A DNA stretch of 35,240 nucleotides, taken from contig CAMVJF010000002.1 of assembly GCA_947167725.1 (NCBI GenBank), positions 1 to 35,240 on the forward strand, in the 5' to 3' direction. The notes beneath the pieces were generated by a model that was not told the DNA's origin, did not search any database, and was given only the letters and a program-made list of their open reading frames with translations. How positions within the stretch are numbered: position 1 is the stretch's first letter; each line of letters opens with the position of its first letter. Origin of the DNA: an uncultured Clostridia bacterium (lineage in GTDB: Bacteria > Bacillota > Clostridia > Oscillospirales > Oscillospiraceae). The translations under genes were made by a program, and so were the position numbers. This document shows positions 3,014 through 25,107 of this stretch, one piece after another.

Positions 3014-4575
3014 GTCTCGCCCTCCGTATCCGGCAGCGGCCACCAGCCGACGACCAGCATGCCCTTCATGATCGGCCGCCCGGTGAAGTACCAGGTCTGC
3101 CCATCCCAGTCAAAGCGGAACTCCTTCGGCGGTTCGTCCTCCGGGTCGAGGTTCCCCTTCATCCGGCAGAAGTACCGGCCCGGCCTGGGCGGCGTGCCGG
3201 TGAGCCAGCGCGGCTCCGGCGCGCCGTCGTCCTGCGTCGCAGCAGCCCCTTCCCCCGCGGGCCGCACAGCCTCCGTCCGCCCGAGCAGGTAGTCGGTGGA
3301 GCAGCCGAGCAGGTCGGCCAGGTCGATCAGGCAATCGTCGAGAAACTCGATCGCGTAGTGCTGCACGTCCTTCTCCTCGCCGGAGACGAAGCGCAGGATC
3401 TGCTGCACGTCCCCATCGCTCTCCCAGAGCTGGTCCAGCACGCCCTCCAGGTTCCGCCCGTTCTCCTCTGCCGCCCGGCCGATCCGGGCCCAGATCGCGG
3501 CGCTCTCCTCGTCGTGCTCCTTGCGGGCGCGCTCGGCCGCGGCCTGCCGCATTTCAAGATCCGTCTGCCGCTGCCGTTTGAGGCGGTCGGTCTCGGTGAT
3601 CGCCTGGGCGCGCTCGGCCTCGCACTTGATGCAGGCCCACTCGCACGTCCCGATCTCCTGGCAGCCGATGCAGCAGCGTCCCCGGTAGCAGTTCTCCCGG
3701 ACGCCCTCGAAGTGCGTGAGCTTCTGCGCGTAGTCGAAGCGGCTCTCCGCGTAGGTGCAGGGGCAGCCGACGCTGGACTTTTTGCACTTGATGGTGCAGA
3801 GCTTGCGGTGCAGGTCCCCGAGTTTCTCAACGTACTCGGCCGTGAGCGCCTCGGGCTTGTAGCCGAGGTGCAGGTGGTTGACCCAGATATTCTTTTGCAG
3901 CGCCTTGTCCAGCCGGGAGAAGGCATAGGCGACGCTCTCGTTGATCTTGCCCTGGTCGAAGGCGGAGAGGATGTACTCGTGGCAGCGGTGCCCGATGGCG
4001 TCCAGCCGCCCGATCTTGCTCTTGGTGAGGTTCACGGCCTCGGCCACGTGGTCGCGCATCCGGCCGGTAAACTGCACGCCCTGGGCCTGCAGCTCATAGA
4101 GCGCCTTGCGCGTCTCCTCGATCTCCCGGCGCTTCTCGGCGTCGCTGCGCTCGCGCGTGCAGGAGTTGGCGTAGATGAGCCGCAGCCGCCGCATGGCGTC
4201 GCTCGCCTCGCCGTACTCCACGATACAGGGCACTCCGCTGTCGAACATCGGGTTCCCGCCGTCGCGGATCAGCAGGCAGGCGGCCCGCCTCCGGTGGCCG
4301 GAGACGACGGTGTAGCGCTCGCCGTTCGGCCGGACCCGGATGGGATCCAGCAGGCCCACGGTCTCGATGTTCCCGGCGAGCTCGTCGAGCCCGTCGAGCG
4401 AGTAGAAGTTCTCCGGGTCCGGGTCGATCGCCTCCAGCGGCAGCCGGACGATCTGCTCCTCCCCGGTGTTTAAATCGGGCACGCCCTTCAGCGCTGCCGC
4501 AAGGTCAAAGCCCCCGCCGCTCACGGGGCCGAGCTCCTGCACCTTGCGCATCTGTTTTTCCTGTCGTTCCGTCAT
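3010..4575 (-). CDS. parB: ParB-like nuclease/partition protein with Cys cluster
   Basis: 521 aa. Residues ~40-150 are a ParB/Srx domain: IVRLPLEAIDPDPEN, LDELAGNIETVGLLDPIRVRP and VVSGHRRRAACLLI (the arginine-rich CTP-binding motif). A helical HTH region follows with LTKSKIGRLDAIG. A Cys-rich centre (roughly 265-330: CKKSSVGCPC, CYRGRCCIGCQ, CEWACIKC) could bind metal or an iron-sulfur cluster. After a coiled coil there is LADLLGCSTDYLLGR, which looks like the last helix of an XRE HTH, then a beta-rich tail with PPRPGRYFCR. With ParA upstream (ATGA overlap at 4572-4575) it forms a parAB cassette. A canonical parS was not found. Confidence 0.82.
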   Translation of the reverse strand: MTERQEKQMRKVQELGPVSGGGFDLAAALKGVPDLNTGEEQIVRLPLEAIDPDPENFYSLDGLDELAGNIETVGLLDPIRVRPNGERYTVVSGHRRRAACLLIRDGGNPMFDSGVPCIVEYGEASDAMRRLRLIYANSCTRERSDAEKRREIEETRKALYELQAQGVQFTGRMRDHVAEAVNLTKSKIGRLDAIGHRCHEYILSAFDQGKINESVAYAFSRLDKALQKNIWVNHLHLGYKPEALTAEYVEKLGDLHRKLCTIKCKKSSVGCPCTYAESRFDYAQKLTHFEGVRENCYRGRCCIGCQEIGTCEWACIKCEAERAQAITETDRLKRQRQTDLEMRQAAAERARKEHDEESAAIWARIGRAAEENGRNLEGVLDQLWESDGDVQQILRFVSGEEKDVQHYAIEFLDDCLIDLADLLGCSTDYLLGRTEAVRPAGEGAAATQDDGAPEPRWLTGTPPRPGRYFCRMKGNLDPEDEPPKEFRFDWDGQTWYFTGRPIMKGMLVVGWWPLPDTEGET

Positions 4576-5594
4576 GCCTGCTCGCCCCCTTCCCTGTCAT
4601 TGCGAGGCAGCGCGCACACTGCCGTGGCAATCCGTTCTCCCTTCCGCGGCCGTCCAGGCCGTCTCTTGCCCGTCTCCACGTCATGGCCCCGCAGCGGCTT
4701 CCCCGCCGCAGCGTCCTCCCCGCTGTCATTGCGAGCCAGCCCGCAGGCTGGTGTGGCAATCCGTTCTCTCCGCTCCTGTCCCACGATCCAGCTCGCGAGC
4801 GCCCGGTAGTCCCGGCAGGGCGCCGAGCGCGGGGAGCAGACGATCAGCGGCTGCTGGTGGTAGGTCATGTCGTCCACCCGGTCGGAGCGCCGGATCCGCG
4901 GCAGCACCTTGAGGCCCGCCGATCGCAGCGCGCTCTCGGCCCGCTGGATGGTCTCGGACCGGTACCACATGACCGGCAGCACGCCCAGCAGCTGCAGCTT
5001 TGGGTTGAGGCGCCGCATGTTGGCGATCTGCCGCATCAGGTTGGTCATGCCTTCGAGCGCGAAGGCGTCGAGCTTGACCGGGATCAGCACCGCGTCGGCC
5101 GCGATCAGGGCAGCCGAGCTCGCCGCGTTGAAGGCCGGCGGGCAGTCGATCAGGCAGTAATCGAAGGGCTCGCCGTAGATCACCGTCGCGAGCTTCTCGT
5201 TCCTCTCGTCCCCCTTGACGGCAGCGGCGATCTTCTCGCGCTGCTCCAGCGCCTTGCGCAGCTCGCGCAGACAGGTCACGTCGGCCCGCCCGTCCCCGGC
5301 CTTGCTGAGGTCCAGGTCCATCAGGTCAGGGCTGCCGGCGATCAGGCTCACGCCGGGCACGTTGGTGGTCTGCAGCGCCAGCGGCTTCTCGTCGCTGAGC
5401 TCCCGCCGCAGCATGGCGGCGACGCCGACGCGCTCCCGGTCCCCGCCGAGGAAGCTCGTGGCGTTGCCCTGGCTGTCCGCGTCGATCACGAGGACGCGCT
5501 TTCCGAACTCACGCGCGAGGATGGCCGCGAGATTGACGGCGGTCGTCGTCTTGGCGACGCCGCCCTTCTGGTTGCAGATGCAAATGGTTTTCAT
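4572..5594 (-). CDS. parA: ParA family ATPase with REP-derived tail
   Basis: 340 aa from ATG 5594, the start that begins the P-loop strand (MKTICICNQKGG). The deviant Walker A KGGVAKTTT (10-18), DADSQGN and DYCLIDCPPAF are typical of Soj/ParA partition ATPases, which move DNA by patterning on the nucleoid. The conserved domain ends near RALASWIVG (about residue 275). The remainder is encoded by two REP repeats read in the same frame (RIATPACGLARND and RIATAVCALPRND) separated by a basic stretch KRRPGRPRKG that resembles an AT-hook. The stop overlaps the parB start, so the unusual tail is still within the coupled operon. Upstream in-frame ATGs read through another REP copy and are unlikely. 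Confidence 0.87.
   Translation of the reverse strand: MKTICICNQKGGVAKTTTAVNLAAILAREFGKRVLVIDADSQGNATSFLGGDRERVGVAAMLRRELSDEKPLALQTTNVPGVSLIAGSPDLMDLDLSKAGDGRADVTCLRELRKALEQREKIAAAVKGDERNEKLATVIYGEPFDYCLIDCPPAFNAASSAALIAADAVLIPVKLDAFALEGMTNLMRQIANMRRLNPKLQLLGVLPVMWYRSETIQRAESALRSAGLKVLPRIRRSDRVDDMTYHQQPLIVCSPRSAPCRDYRALASWIVGQERRERIATPACGLARNDSGEDAAAGKPLRGHDVETGKRRPGRPRKGERIATAVCALPRNDREGGEQA
4595..4635. repeat. REP-like repeat, family 1, inside parA
   Basis: TGTCATTGCGAGGCAG ... CTGCC ... GTGGCAATCCGT: the family-1 form (TCATTGCGA, variable short stem, TGGCAATCCG). It lies in parA codons near the C-terminus and is translated as RIATAVCALPRND. Confidence 0.8.
4724..4764. repeat. REP-like repeat, family 1, inside parA (second copy)
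   Basis: TGTCATTGCGAGCCAGCC, a CCAGC/GCTGG stem and TGTGGCAATCCGT. It is translated in the same frame as the copy at 4595-4635; the two copies are offset by 129 bases, a multiple of three. Confidence 0.82.
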
Positions 5595-5621
5595 GTCTTT
5601 CTCTCTCTTTCTTTTCCGTTC

Positions 5622-5656
5622 TGTCATTGCGAGCCAGTGCTCACACTGGCGTGGGG
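5622..5656. repeat. REP-like repeat, family 1, upstream of parA (truncated)
   Basis: TGTCATTGCGAGCCAGTG with CCAGTG/CACTGG stem, but the usual GGCAATCCG end is replaced by GGGGTCTG running into the tandem repeat at 5661-5703. It lies between parA and the 57-aa gene. Confidence 0.72.
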
Positions 5657-5660
5657 TCTG

Positions 5661-5703
5661 CCCTTTAGGGTACAATCCGTTCCCCTTTAGGGTACAATCC
5701 GTT
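5661..5703. repeat. Tandem 21-bp repeat (two copies)
   Basis: Two copies (5661-5681 and 5683-5703) of CCCTTTAGGG followed by TACAATCCGTT, one base apart. CCCTTTAGGG is itself near-palindromic. The end ATCCGTT matches the end of family-1 REPs, so this may be a duplicated REP terminus. It lies directly after the stop of the 57-aa gene. Confidence 0.7.
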
Positions 5704-6069: not shown

Positions 6070-7443
6070 TCAGAACGGCAGCCCCTCCTCGCCGCCTTCC
6101 ATCTCCCGGAAGGCGCTCTCCTGGGCGTCGCGTTTTTCCTGCGCCCGGCGTTCCTTCTCCCGGCGCTCGGCGCGTTTCTCGTCCATTTTGGCGGTCCGCT
6201 CGGCGCTCCCGTTCGGCAGCGCCATGTAGCGGAAGGTCAGCCGCGGGCCGTCGAAGCTCAGGAGCATCCGGGCCTGGCCGACGTCCTTGTTTTTGTCCAT
6301 GACCAGCACGCGGTTTGATGCGTAATCATCCGGATCGCTCAGGTCGAGCAGCAAAACGACGTCGGCGTCGTTGGCGAGCTGCTGGCTCTCGCGCAGGTTC
6401 TCCTTGCGCAGCGGCGGGCGGCGGCCCTTGCTGTCGCGCTGCGGCAGCGTCACCTGGCTCAGGGCGAACACGGTCACGCCGAGCTGCTGGGCGAGCGTGT
6501 GCAGCGCCATCGAGATCGCGCGGACCTGCAGCGCCGGGCTCTCGCCCTCGGCGCTGATCAGCTGCACGTAGTCAATGAAGATCACGTCCAGCCGCTTGGA
6601 TAAGGTCCGGGCGCGGATGTCCGCCGCGGTGAAGCCCGCCGCCTGGAAAAACTCCAGCGGCAGCTCCCAGCTCTTCTCGACGAGATCCGCCGTTCGGCGC
6701 AGCTCCTCCCGGGTCAGGCGATGGGCCTGGATGCTGCTCATCCGTGTCTCCGTCTGCTGGGCGAAAATGCGGCGCGCGAGCAGACGGTCCTGCGTCTCGA
6801 GCGAGAAAAAGCCGACGCGCTTGCCGCTTTGGGCAAGCGCCCAGGCCATCTGCAGGGCGAGCGCCGTCTTGCCGACCGAGTTGTAGGCGCCGAGGATCAC
6901 GTACTGGCCGGCCTGCACGCGCGCGGCTTTGGTGAGCTCCGGGATCCCCAGCTCGAGATACTCGTCCGGCTCGGCGCTGAGATCTTCCAGGAAGGTCTCG
7001 GCCAGCTCCCGCCAGCTCCGGCTCTCCTCGCGCCGCGTGTCCGCGCTCAGATCCGCCGCCCGGCTGATCAGCGCCCGCGCCTCGTCCAGCGTCCGGCAGG
7101 CGCCGAGCGCGAGCCCGGCGGCCTGCAGGGCGCGCAGCTGCGCCTTTTGCCGCACGATCGCGGCGTACTCGGCTACGTTCGCGGCCGTCGGCGTCGAGCG
7201 CATGAGCTGCGCCGCCACCGTGCCGTATTCGTCCGAGGCCCCGGCCGCCGCCCCGATCGTCACGGGGTCGACCGGCTTCTTTTCCAGCCACAGTCCCCGG
7301 GCCGCCTCATAGAGATGCCGCAGCGTCGTATCCGCGAAGTCCTCCGGCCGAAGATCCTGCACGAGGCCCGGCAGCACGCCGTCCGGGTCGATCAGCAGCG
7401 AGCCGATCACCGCGGCCTCGGCCTGCGGGAAGCTCAGATCCAT
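6070..7443 (-). CDS. dnaB: Replicative DNA helicase, DnaB family
   Basis: 457 aa, close to the ~450 aa of bacterial DnaB. The N-terminal helical domain (1-110, beginning PQAEAAVIGSLLIDPD) is followed by a RecA-like ATPase: Walker A GAYNSVGKT (185-193), arginine/helicase motifs LGVTVFALSQV, Walker B LDVIFIDYVQL and RESQQLANDADVVLLL. It unwinds the phage origin as a hexamer. It directly follows the initiator gene, overlapping it by 10 bases, the usual initiator-helicase pair. The final ~60 residues are highly charged (EKRAERREKERRAQEKRDAQ). Confidence 0.93.
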   Translation of the reverse strand: MDLSFPQAEAAVIGSLLIDPDGVLPGLVQDLRPEDFADTTLRHLYEAARGLWLEKKPVDPVTIGAAAGASDEYGTVAAQLMRSTPTAANVAEYAAIVRQKAQLRALQAAGLALGACRTLDEARALISRAADLSADTRREESRSWRELAETFLEDLSAEPDEYLELGIPELTKAARVQAGQYVILGAYNSVGKTALALQMAWALAQSGKRVGFFSLETQDRLLARRIFAQQTETRMSSIQAHRLTREELRRTADLVEKSWELPLEFFQAAGFTAADIRARTLSKRLDVIFIDYVQLISAEGESPALQVRAISMALHTLAQQLGVTVFALSQVTLPQRDSKGRRPPLRKENLRESQQLANDADVVLLLDLSDPDDYASNRVLVMDKNKDVGQARMLLSFDGPRLTFRYMALPNGSAERTAKMDEKRAERREKERRAQEKRDAQESAFREMEGGEEGLPF

Positions 7444-8246
7444 GGGATGTTCTGCCCCCTCTCCGCGGTCTCCTCATACGGCTGCGCCTCCCACGGGTCC
7501 GGCATATCGTCGGCGTCCTGCCAGCGCGCGCCGTTGAGGTAGGTCGCGGCCATCGGGATGCCGACGCCCCGCTGCCACTCCGGCGTGGCGCGCTGCCTGA
7601 GCAGCGCCCGGCCGATCCGGGCGATCAGCTCGTCGTCCGGCTGCAGCCGGTCCCAGGCGTCCATGGCGGCCTGCTTGTTCTCGTTGCGTGTCCGGCCGCC
7701 CTCGCCCGGGATCTTCCGGTACCAGGTCCAGAACGCGGCGAAGCGCTCCGGCTTCCAGTCCGGTGCCTCCCGGGGAGCGTGTTTGCGACTTCCGCAAACA
7801 CGTGTATTAGATTTATTGTTAATTTTCTTATAAGGTGTCGGGGCCTCAGTTTGGAAAGTTTTTTCCAAACTGCCGGAAAATTTCTTCCGAACTGCGGACC
7901 CAGTTTGGAAAATATTTTCCAAACTGGACGGCGCCCCCGCGAGGGGATTGATCCCCGCGTAGATCCGCCGCTCGACGGTCGCGTTGTGCTCCCCCGCCTC
8001 GCGCTCGATGCGGATATAGCCGGTGTCGGCCAGGGCCTTCAGCAGCGAGCGGATCGTCCGCTCGGTCATTTGGTAGAGCCCGGCGAAATAGGCGTCGTCC
8101 GCGAAGCAGTAGCCGGTCTTTCCGGTGAGGCTGGAGATCTCCGCATAGAGGAGCTTGGCGTTGGCGGGGATCCGATCGTCGTACCGGATCCCCGCGGGCA
8201 ATATCGCCCAGTATCCCGGCTGCGCCGGGAGCTTGTCGTCGGTCAT
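7434..8246 (-). CDS. Replication initiator with N-terminal winged helix
   Basis: 270 aa. The N-terminus (GYWAILPAGIRYDDRIPANA, LLYAEISSLTGKTGYCFADD, then MTERTIRSLLKALADTGYIRIER, residues 11-83) is the helix-turn-helix seen in phage replication/DnaD-like initiators. The C-terminus (WKPERFAAFWTWYRKIPG ... WQDADDM) resembles the helicase-loading part. Between them, residues 108-145 are low in complexity and are encoded by the iteron palindromes and AT-rich stretch at 7801-7926 (LENIFQTG, RKKFSG, LEKTFQTE). This is the arrangement of phages whose origin lies inside the initiator gene. It is followed directly by dnaB. Confidence 0.82.
   Translation of the reverse strand: MTDDKLPAQPGYWAILPAGIRYDDRIPANAKLLYAEISSLTGKTGYCFADDAYFAGLYQMTERTIRSLLKALADTGYIRIEREAGEHNATVERRIYAGINPLAGAPSSLENIFQTGSAVRKKFSGSLEKTFQTEAPTPYKKINNKSNTRVCGSRKHAPREAPDWKPERFAAFWTWYRKIPGEGGRTRNENKQAAMDAWDRLQPDDELIARIGRALLRQRATPEWQRGVGIPMAATYLNGARWQDADDMPDPWEAQPYEETAERGQNIPWI
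7801..7926. other. Putative replication origin (iterons plus AT-rich region)
   Basis: Three palindromic repeats lie in a row: 7847-7872 (CAGTTTGGAAA ... TTTCCAAACTG, nearly perfect), 7873-7894 (a degenerate GGAAAATTTCTTCC form) and 7901-7926, a perfect 26-base palindrome with the same ends. Next to them, 7801-7838 is the most AT-rich stretch of this part of the phage and would serve as an unwinding element. All is inside the initiator gene, as in many phage theta origins. Function is inferred; the repeats are seen. Confidence 0.75.
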
Positions 8247-8250
8247 AATC

Positions 8251-8933
<683 letters not shown>

Positions 8934-22171: not shown

Positions 22172-23968
22172 TTACCCTCTCATTCTCGCCCGGACGCGGG
22201 CGCTGCGCGCGATCTCGATGATGTCGTTGAATTCCTTCACGGTGTTCGCGGGGATCGTGATGTTAAAGACGTCTCCGCCGAAGCCCCGGCTCTCCTGCGC
22301 GCTGAGGATCTGCGATCCCCGCGGCAGCGCCACCAGCTCCGGCCCGGCTTCCCCGACCCAGGTGAGCCCGCCGCGCCAGTTGTCGGTGCCCCCGGCGTTG
22401 TAGGGGTTTCCGGTGGTGTACCAGCCCGTCTCCCGATCGTAGTAGCGGTTGGTGCTCCGGTCGTAGCTGTACTGCCCGCGCCCGTAGTAGGACTCGTACT
22501 GCGCGAGCGTGCCGTTCTGCTGCATGTACACGCGCTGCCAGTTGCTGAGCTGGCCTCTGGTGCTGTTCCAGCCGAGCGCCGTGGAGAGCCGTCCGCTCCC
22601 CCAGTTCCAGGGCGCAAGGCCCGCGATCACGTTGAACGTGTCTGCCACCAGCGCGGCGAACTGAGCCAGAGCACCGAGGACCGTCTGCAAGGCGTTGAAC
22701 CGCTGCGTCACGGCGGGCAGGGTACTCTCCGAGGCCTCCTGCATGCCGCCGAAAAGGCTGGATAGCGTGCGCAGCAGGCTCGCCATGCCCTCAATGATGC
22801 CGCTGCGGGCCAGCGCGTCGCCCGCCGTCTTGACCACGCGGGCGTAGAGCTCCATCGCGGCCTGTGAGGCCGGTGCGAACTCCACGGCGAGCTGTTTTTT
22901 CGTGGCGTCGATCTGCAGCTGCATCTCCTGGTAGGCGTCGTCGACCTCGCCGAGCTTCTTGAGCTGGCTCTCGTCCAGCACGTAGCCGGTCTGCTCGGCC
23001 TGCCGGGCGTACTGCCGCAGCGCCTCGCTCCCCTGCAGGATCAGCGGGTTGAGCTCCTGCGCGGATTTCCCCAGCAGCTCCATGGCCAGCGCGTCGCGCT
23101 GCGTGGTGTTCTCGATCCCGCCCAGCGCGTCGATCGTGTCGTAGAACACGGCCTCCGCGCTGCGCAGGTTGCCGTCGGTGTCCAAAATGGACACGCCGAG
23201 GGCCTGGAAGCTCTCGGCCAGCGCCTGGTTCCCGCCGTCGGCCTCGGCCATGTTCTTTGTGAGCTTTGTCAGCGTCCCGGTGATCGTGCCGTAGCTCACA
23301 TCGATCAGGTTCTCGGCGTACTTGAGCTGCTGGATCGTCTGCGTGCTGAGGCCCGTCGTCATGGACTCGGTCAGCACCTCGTCCACCTCGGCCGCTGCCT
23401 CCACCGTCGTCCGGTGCAGGGCCTGCACGCCCTTGACCAGCAGGGCCACGCCGCCGACGGCCGCGCTCATCGCGGCGACCGTGCCGGCGGAGAGTCCCTT
23501 CATGCCGTTGAGCGCCTTGGTGGCGCCCTCCGGCAGCTTGATCCCGAGCTTCGACGCGAGATCCGCCACGGTATCGCCGAGGCCCTTCATCGCGTCGCCC
23601 TCGCCCTGCAGCGCCTCGTTGTTTTCGCGGATCGCCGCCTCAAGGTCATATTGTGCGGCCTCGGCGTTGTTCAGCTTGATCTGCCAATCCTGCGTCTGCT
23701 GGGCGCTCTCGCCGTACTGCTGCGCGGCGTTTTTGAGCGCGTCGCGCAGGGTCTGGACCTTGTCCCGCTGCTGCAGGAGCTGCCGCTCGAGGAGCTCGCC
23801 TTTTTTCGTCAGGAACTCGGTGCTTTCCGTGTTTCCTTTGTACTCGGCCTGGAGCTTGCGCATCTCCGAGCCGAGGACGGCGTTCCCCTTCTGCAGATCG
23901 CTGAGAGCCTGCTTGTATTGTTTTTCGCCGTCGAGCTCGACGCGAGCTTTTACGGTCCGTGTTGCCAT
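22172..23968 (-). CDS. Tail tape measure protein
   Basis: 598 aa. A long coiled N-terminus (ARVELDGEKQYKQALSDLQK, GSEMRKLQAEYKGNTEST, ELLERQLLQQRDKVQTLRDA) precedes a hydrophobic segment GTVAAMSAAVGGVALLVKGV and helical repeats (GSEALRQYARQAEQTGYVLD). The C-terminus ends WVGEAGPELVALPRGSQILS then VFNITIPANTVKEFNDII, the classic end of Firmicute tape measure proteins. It sets tail length; by the usual rule of about 0.15 nm per residue the tail would be about 90 nm. It follows the G/GT genes as expected. Confidence 0.93.
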   Translation of the reverse strand: MATRTVKARVELDGEKQYKQALSDLQKGNAVLGSEMRKLQAEYKGNTESTEFLTKKGELLERQLLQQRDKVQTLRDALKNAAQQYGESAQQTQDWQIKLNNAEAAQYDLEAAIRENNEALQGEGDAMKGLGDTVADLASKLGIKLPEGATKALNGMKGLSAGTVAAMSAAVGGVALLVKGVQALHRTTVEAAAEVDEVLTESMTTGLSTQTIQQLKYAENLIDVSYGTITGTLTKLTKNMAEADGGNQALAESFQALGVSILDTDGNLRSAEAVFYDTIDALGGIENTTQRDALAMELLGKSAQELNPLILQGSEALRQYARQAEQTGYVLDESQLKKLGEVDDAYQEMQLQIDATKKQLAVEFAPASQAAMELYARVVKTAGDALARSGIIEGMASLLRTLSSLFGGMQEASESTLPAVTQRFNALQTVLGALAQFAALVADTFNVIAGLAPWNWGSGRLSTALGWNSTRGQLSNWQRVYMQQNGTLAQYESYYGRGQYSYDRSTNRYYDRETGWYTTGNPYNAGGTDNWRGGLTWVGEAGPELVALPRGSQILSAQESRGFGGDVFNITIPANTVKEFNDIIEIARSARVRARMRG

Positions 23969-23972
23969 TGGT

Positions 23973-24511
23973 TCAACCTCCCATGAGGTATTCGCTCAGG
24001 CTGCGCGGCGGCGCGGTCTCCTGCGCCGCCGGAGGCCCGAAGCGGGCCGCGTACAGGGCGTGCAGCCGGGCGGGCGTCATGCGCCGCCAGAAGCTCTGCT
24101 CGTCCATGTGCAGCTCAAAAAGCCAGATAGAGAGATAGCGGGCGAAGTCGATCTTCGCCCGCTTTGTCAGTTTCCCGAGTCGGCGGGCTCTGCGCTGCCC
24201 GGCGCTTCTCTGTTCCGCGTCGGCGAGAGCGACCGGAACAGCATGCCCACAAGGTCGAGCTCCATGAGCATCGCGTAGGAGATCCGCCGCTTGAGCTGCG
24301 CGCTCGTCCAGCGCTCGTCCCAGCCCTGCTCCTCGGCGTAGTCGTCGAGCATGGCCGCCAGCAGGTCCAGCGACGCCGTGCGGACCGGGAGCTGCGTCAC
24401 GGCCTCGAAGTCGCCGTGCTTCTCCTCGATCGCCTCCAGCACCGCCATGTTGCAGCGGAGGATGTAGCGCTTGCCCTCCAGCTCGAAGGGCTTCTCCTCG
24501 AGCCGGATCAT
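23973..24511 (-). CDS. Tail assembly chaperone GT (made by -1 frameshift)
   Basis: Fusion of the 114-residue G part (24511-24170) with a 65-residue T part (to 23973), 179 aa in total, made by a -1 slip at GGGAAAC (24170-24176). The T part begins LTKRAKIDFARYLSIWLFEL and has HMDEQSFWRRMTPARLHALY, the usual T-domain of Firmicute siphophages. GT binds the tape measure and recruits tail-tube subunits. The T frame has no start of its own at this junction. It is followed 4 bases later by the tape measure gene. Confidence 0.88.
24137..24176 (-). promoter_or_regulatory. -1 programmed ribosomal frameshift signal
   Basis: On the minus strand the slippery heptamer G GGA AAC (24176-24170, in the zero frame) is followed by TGACAA, including the zero-frame stop, as a 6-base spacer. 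Then comes a perfect 11-base stem AGCGGGCGAAG / CTTCGCCCGCT (24163-24153 and 24147-24137) with a 5-base loop. After -1 slippage the next codon is CTG, entering the T frame. All elements of a canonical -1 site are present. Confidence 0.93.
24167..24511 (-). CDS. Tail assembly chaperone G
   Basis: 114 aa: MIRLEEKPFELEGKRYILRC, NMAVLEAIEEKHGDFEAVTQ, LDLLAAMLDDYAEEQGWDER, WTSAQLKRRISYAMLMELDL. It is the unshifted product, ending ADSGN at a TGA that directly follows the slippery site. It matches the tail-chaperone family between major tail protein and tape measure. ATGA overlap with the major tail gene. Confidence 0.88.
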   Translation of the reverse strand: MIRLEEKPFELEGKRYILRCNMAVLEAIEEKHGDFEAVTQLPVRTASLDLLAAMLDDYAEEQGWDERWTSAQLKRRISYAMLMELDLVGMLFRSLSPTRNREAPGSAEPADSGN

Positions 24512-25107
24512 GCGAGCACCGCGGTGACCCAGGCGATCGCGGCCTCCTCATTGTCGGCGATGGCCACCTCCAGCATGTCCTGGTTGCTGGTGTCGTCCGC
24601 CAGGAATTCGCCGCTCGTGGTCGGCGTGTTGAACTGGATGTTGTCGCCGGCCGTCTGCAGCGTCATGCTGGGCGGGCCGAACAGGGCCTTTGCGATGTAG
24701 ACGCAGGTGTACTTGAGCGTCCCGTCGACCATGTCGGGCGCGTAGAACGCGACCGAGACGTAGACGCTGTCCGTCTTGGCGCCCAGGACCAGCCCGGAGA
24801 TCTCGCCGGTGGTCTGGCTGCCGCCCTCCGGGGTGTAGGTCACGCTGCGCGTCTTGGCGCGGCTGCCGAACATGAGCTGCTGCGTCGCGCTCGGGATATA
24901 CTTCACGCCGAGCGAGATCGTGCCGCCTGTGGCCTTGCGCATGTACTCCGCGAGCGTGCTCTCGGCATAGAGCCGTCCCTCGGCGTAGCGCATTTCCAGG
25001 TTGGCCGTCATGGCGTCGCCGGCGCTCATGGGCGTGCCGTGCGTGACGGCGCCGTTGGAGGCTTCGTATTTGGCGACCTTGATCCCTCTGAGATCAAACT
25101 GAGGCAT
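24508..25107 (-). CDS. Major tail (tube) protein
   Basis: 199 aa: MPQFDLRGIKVAKYEASNGA, THGTPMSAGDAMTANLEMRY, EGRLYAESTLAEYMRKATGG, TISLGVKYIPSATQQLMFGS. Matches the phi13/TP901-1-like major tail protein family of Firmicute siphophages, length as expected (about 190-200). TGG-TISLGV and GEISGLVLGAKTDSVYVSVA mark the tube barrel. Followed directly by the G chaperone gene. Confidence 0.9.
   Translation of the reverse strand: MPQFDLRGIKVAKYEASNGAVTHGTPMSAGDAMTANLEMRYAEGRLYAESTLAEYMRKATGGTISLGVKYIPSATQQLMFGSRAKTRSVTYTPEGGSQTTGEISGLVLGAKTDSVYVSVAFYAPDMVDGTLKYTCVYIAKALFGPPSMTLQTAGDNIQFNTPTTSGEFLADDTSNQDMLEVAIADNEEAAIAWVTAVLA

Follow-up and report, generated by a model that had tools for sequence, protein, structure and literature searches.

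Frameshifting by −1 in tail chaperone genes is classical and well known in phages, and Xu, Hendrix and Duda are said to have surveyed such frameshifts in 2004. To our knowledge, stimulators of these events have been thought absent or minor in certain tailed phages. The window, by which we mean the whole stretch of 35,240 nucleotides analysed here from an uncultured Clostridia bacterium, raises a question, as it holds a tail chaperone gene in which a slippery heptamer, a stop codon and a hairpin follow one another directly. Is the gene decoded by programmed frameshifting, and is the hairpin part of the signal? The locus very probably contains a programmed −1 frameshift site of the lambda G/G-T kind, from which two tail assembly chaperones would be made from one mRNA.

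Anatomy of the tail chaperone locus

The gene order is major tail protein, G, T in the −1 frame and tape measure protein, G and T being two overlapping ORFs. The features concerned are as follows.

24508..25107, minus strand: major tail protein, 199 aa (phrog_88, E 2.9e-16)
24167..24511, minus strand: G, zero-frame tail assembly chaperone, 114 aa, its ORF ending TCG GGA AAC TGA
24170..24176, minus strand: slippery heptamer G_GGA_AAC, in the X_XXY_YYZ phase of the G frame
24167..24169, minus strand: zero-frame UGA stop adjoining the heptamer
24164..24169, minus strand: 6-nt spacer UGACAA, stop included, with pairing at the 6-nt register throughout the aligned sites
24137..24163, minus strand: putative stimulatory stem-loop of 11 bp with a 5-nt loop, based on folding (z −3.97), covariation and a match to the covariance model R1
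23973..24176, minus strand: T domain in the −1 frame, 67 codons from GGG AAA plus the stop
22172..23968, minus strand: tape measure protein, 598 aa (phrog_8462 and others, tail length tape measure protein)

The stop of the major tail protein overlaps the start of G, whose C-terminal codons read ...GAC TCG GGA AAC TGA. The −1 frame reads GGG AAA CUG ACA AAG CGG and onwards to the stop at 23973, giving a predicted G-T fusion of 112 + 67 = 179 aa that ends just 5' of the tape measure ATG (23968). The stem arms, AGCGGGCGAAG and CUUCGCCCGCU, enclose the loop AUCGA and form 11 Watson-Crick pairs.

The heptamer alone is no evidence, since GGGAAAC is expected 3.8 times in the window by chance; it is the combination with stem, phase and conservation that counts. 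The window has five perfect stems of 11 bp or more with a loop of 3-10 nt (overlapping ones counted) versus a mean of 0.2 in 30 shuffles, and the 61-nt stretch folds at −24.6 kcal/mol versus −13.1 kcal/mol when shuffled, with none of 200 shuffles folding equally well. To judge from sequence and conservation together, the frameshift element at 24176-24137 is not a chance occurrence. A 6-bp match between the loop and downstream sequence, as a pseudoknot would need, is found in only 5 of 78 family members, and a simple hairpin is therefore preferred.

The structure model of G (pLDDT 85) matches viral structures named tail assembly chaperone or tail tube protein. Foldseek against the PDB gave no significant match, and a second structure comparison gave weak ones, headed by 2ob9 (Z 3.7, rmsd 4.6 over 85 residues, tied with an unrelated chain), which we take to be the HK97 reference for the tail assembly chaperone fold. 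The argument from fold thus rests on the viral models. No reliable family was found in Pfam or NCBIfam.

Elsewhere in the window, two perfect inverted repeats (CCAGTTTGGAAA...TTTCCAAACTGG) at 7840-7930, within a replication initiation gene (7434-8246, minus strand, phrog_270), are a candidate phage replication origin. The hexamer AGCCGT, repeated about 33 times at 8715-8915, encodes a low-complexity stretch rich in Gly, Ser, Tyr and Asp in a minus-strand ORF that has no PHROG match. A ParA-like partition gene (phrog_164) and a second replication initiator (phrog_3584) lie at 4572-5703 and 1013-1765, and two perfect 22-nt direct repeats, CCCTTTAGGGTACAATCCGTTC, accompany the ParA-like gene at 5661-5703. 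Because of this gene with its repeats and the second initiator, the contig may represent a phage-plasmid; its ends were not found to overlap.

Conservation of the heptamer and the stem

A G homologue was present in 80 IMG/VR viral contigs, two of which (L020, L075) leave the contig before the site. All 78 testable homologues have GGGAAAC or AAAAAAC, then TGA directly, plus the stem. One of the 78 (L056) lies on a contig that ends soon after the site, and the stem analysis comprises 77 relatives and the window. Stem pairs 3 to 7 and 9 are standard pairs in every one of these sequences. Among the 43 distinct sequences, 94.7% of cells are paired, double changes occur in 6 of the 11 pairs, and the covariation score is reached by none of 500 shuffles. 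In a human faecal phage (L130), the residues over the 3' arm have changed from F-A-R to F-P-G and the arms still pair. About four changes between GGGAAAC and AAAAAAC fall on the tree, an exchange that preserves, in its letters, the XXXYYY symmetry that tandem re-pairing would need.

These results bear out most of a preliminary description of the locus, which had placed the signal at 24137-24176 without giving the strand; the coordinates are correct and the strand is minus. The zero-frame GGGAAAC (24176-24170), the 6-base spacer that includes the stop and the perfect 11-base hairpin with its 5-base loop are all in the sequence, the last also by folding; the −1 frame does continue as T to right before the tape measure gene, and the proposed products of 114 and 179 residues match the ORF lengths. 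Relatives without both heptamer and stem had been named as what would speak against the signal, and 0 of the 78 testable close relatives lack either.

Two departures were seen among the relatives. In L102 (reverse strand, about 1478-1523) the heptamer is short of one A (CAAAAAC), which places T in +1 relative to G, and the stem is kept; this may be a broken copy, a differently decoded copy or a sequence error. L007/L089 (G000:C5) is a second tail-chaperone gene in one genome; its AAAAAAC is followed 18 nt on by a stop, and its stem covers F-A-W in place of F-A-R.

At greater distance, the G family corresponds to phrog_2115 ("tail protein"), which 26 of 27 aligned members match (best 4.6e-12), with the G of the window (P0001) reaching only 0.0021; this family is present in 38 of 391 genomes of the class. 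AAAAAAC occurs in phase in 23 of the 30 phrog_2115 loci fetched, with the zero-frame stop 12 nt past the heptamer in nearly all. Here too the stem begins 6 nt past the heptamer, with its 3' arm over the same codons, which in these loci encode F-T-R-L in place of F-A-R-Y. Since the 6-nt stem is shared by the distant relatives, whose stop mostly lies 12 nt on, stem and spacing seem to have arisen before the abutting stop, which, on this distribution, looks like a derived trait of the window's clade.

In 48 representatives, 97.5% of cells are paired, 7 of 10 pairs show double changes and none of 500 shuffles does as well, while pairing falls to 30-50% in slid-register controls. Parsimony on a 99-gene tree built from residues outside the stem counted 39 double and 31 single changes after which the pair still forms, against 13 that break it. 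In stem pairs 2, 5 and 8 both partners are third codon positions of the −1 frame, and the two letters show a strong association (0 of 2000 permutations), a value inflated by shared ancestry, for which reason the tree count is given alongside. Overall, more than 100 related gut phages retain the stem at an unchanged distance, its position being fixed 6 nt past the heptamer in about 100 genes. The AAAAAAC/GGGAAAC element is absent in some divergent phrog_2115 members (L113, L114, L120, L125, L126). Two of these, L125 and L126, are not matched by R1 and carry TTTTTTC or TTTTTTA in phase, and the signal may have been replaced there.

The covariance model R1 matches the window at 24176-24137 with 50.1 bits (E 2.9e-11), the window itself belonging to the training set. 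Across 295 genomes including the window's own, eight matches were found in other genomes at E ≤ 0.001, seven of which lie in tail chaperone genes where AAAAAAC is in phase and the −1 frame resembles T (L136, L137, L138, L140, L141, L142, L143). One of the seven, L143, had already come up through its protein as L085, but was not part of the training set of R1. The eighth, L139, was rejected as a chance hairpin or terminator look-alike without a chaperone frame. Three weak matches in the host genome (L133-L135) were likewise set aside as terminator-like or chance hairpins with no chaperone frame. R1 finds nothing in the stretches fetched for lambda, HK97 (L145), PVL (L146), TP901-1 or KL1; for HK97 the stretch is only the end of gp14, and the published slip site was not located for PVL or HK97, so this negative concerns the fetched stretches. 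Rfam gave no match at gathering score, and only chance microRNA and lncRNA scores at a relaxed threshold.

Decoding of the site

Directly supported are the site, the frame, the conserved −1 coding, the covarying conserved stem and the fixed spacing. From this anatomy and conservation we infer tandem slippage to GGG AAA, and the best reading is that a dnaX-like simple hairpin stimulates it. Most ribosomes would decode GGA AAC and terminate at the UGA next to it, releasing G of 114 aa. With GGA in the P site and AAC in the A site, the foot of the hairpin would lie 6 nt downstream, at about the mRNA entry, and resist unwinding; on some ribosomes both tRNAs would then shift back by one base to pair with GGG and AAA, and reading would go on through CUG ACA AAG to make G-T of 179 aa. 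By analogy with lambda, G would coat the tape measure protein, T would recruit the major tail protein, and G and G-T would both leave before the tail is completed.

An internal Shine-Dalgarno-like stimulator is not conserved, as 50 of 78 members have no such motif in the 22 nt upstream and none is held at a fixed spacing. According to one study, A_AAA_AAC slips far less readily than A_AAA_AAG in E. coli, and the second codon of G_GGA_AAC is mammalian-like (PMC5009743). For these two reasons, efficiency in the clostridial host could be low. Published values are about 30:1 for lambda and 6-7% in a reporter for HK97-like sites (PMC5009743, PMC3711429).

The adjoining stop allows another order of events, in which the slip comes late, after translocation, with AAC in the P site, UGA in the A site, release factor 2 competing and the UGA itself part of the signal. 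Such a slip, which we regard as possible if unlikely, would suit a UGA that adjoins the heptamer in every testable close relative, and codon bias alone would not keep this stop, since CTG makes up only 173 of the 487 CTN leucine codons in T domains. Work on other viruses points both ways: when HIV-1 constructs carried a stop after the heptamer, eRF1 was able to recognise it ahead of the frameshift, whereas in Rous sarcoma virus, where the codon is naturally a stop, mutating it left efficiency unchanged (PMC4373837). The distant relatives argue against such a slip, as the heptamer and the stem with its spacing are retained there with the stop lying 12 nt on. The use of UGA rather than UAA or UAG is to be expected, because CTA is rare in T (3 of 546 leucine codons), but that rarity leaves the persistence of any stop at this position unexplained.

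The T domain bears on whether a frameshift is needed at all. Its motif, F-A-R-Y-L-x-I-W ... F-W, is conserved in the relatives, and over the 90 nt after the stem dN/dS in the −1 frame is 0.20-0.44 versus five close relatives; by this measure T evolves as a protein in the −1 frame, under purifying selection. T could conceivably be made separately by re-initiation near the G stop, as the records of three annotated relatives (L127, L128, L129) suggest by listing it as a small hypothetical protein with its own internal start. This is very improbable. In 57 of 78 members the −1 frame has no ATG, GTG or TTG from the last stop to the T motif, and the conserved T of these members cannot come from an initiation of its own; the annotated ATG of L127 sits past the conserved start of T, and re-initiation leaves the heptamer symmetry and the covarying stem unexplained. 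Because T is annotated separately, the G-T fusion has been missed in these three records.

That the hairpin is a transcription terminator or processing site with an incidental heptamer is scarcely credible: the stem is strong and GC-rich, yet the coding strand has no T-run behind it, it is absent from the terminator scan, and in about 100 genes it is locked 6 nt past the heptamer within the coding frame of T. Transcriptional slippage, with the polymerase adding or dropping a base, would find an A-run in the AAAAAAC of some relatives and can be given hardly any weight, because no run in GGGAAAC exceeds three bases and the mRNA keeps its stem at a constant distance of 6 nt from the decoding sites.

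Known systems and biological meaning

With ribosomal −1 frameshifting as the favoured reading, the nearest known systems share parts of the element. Lambda G/G-T has the same gene order, the same −1 direction and the same pairing of a short chaperone with a T-extended form just upstream of the tape measure gene, but its heptamer is GGGAAAG (G_GGA_AAG), its zero-frame stop lies further on, and neither a strong hairpin 6 nt downstream nor an R1 match was found. Burkholderia phage KL1 gp18/gp19 (L090) has GGGAAAC directly before the UGA of the short form (PMC3483164). KL1 belongs to another phage group, and a 6-nt-spaced stem is absent by folding (z 0.26) and by R1, although its authors proposed an mfold stem-loop (PMC3483164). 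The preliminary description had held up the stop immediately after the slippery site as a distinction; the stop is there, but KL1 shares the arrangement and the distant relatives have the stop 12 nt on. In E. coli dnaX, as in the window, a simple stem-loop follows a two-codon (about 6 nt) spacer, a spacing also reported for IBV (PMC4373837). Unlike the window family, in which no upstream stimulator is conserved, dnaX combines A_AAA_AAG with a Shine-Dalgarno-like one (PMC3711429). GGGAAAC is also found in tail chaperone genes of haloarchaeal virus HCTV-1 (PMC5009743) and Caulobacter phage Colossus (PMC3556154), where the accessible parts of both papers report no stem or stop adjacency. PRFect gives mean heptamer-to-stop distances of 26 and 36 nt in two sets (PMC10885494), against which the zero distance in the window is at an extreme.

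No description of the element in Clostridia phages was found in a literature search that had little reach into subscription journals, and the family-wide, fixed-distance stem seems undescribed. What looks new here is the conserved RNA element, GGGAAAC before UGA being already known from KL1.

By comparison of sequences, the case for a stimulatory RNA structure at a tail-chaperone frameshift is strong, and R1 can annotate G-T fusions overlooked in clostridial gut phages. Versions of one element in which the stop abuts the heptamer or stands at a distance offer a natural contrast between early and late slippage. We advance, as a doubtful proposal, that the tail-chaperone genes of many Clostridia phages share an RNA family not described before, whose dnaX-like stem keeps a distance of 6 nt to the slip site, and that in one clade the abutting UGA would make release factor 2 a direct competitor, so that the ratio of the two tail chaperones would depend on termination in the host.
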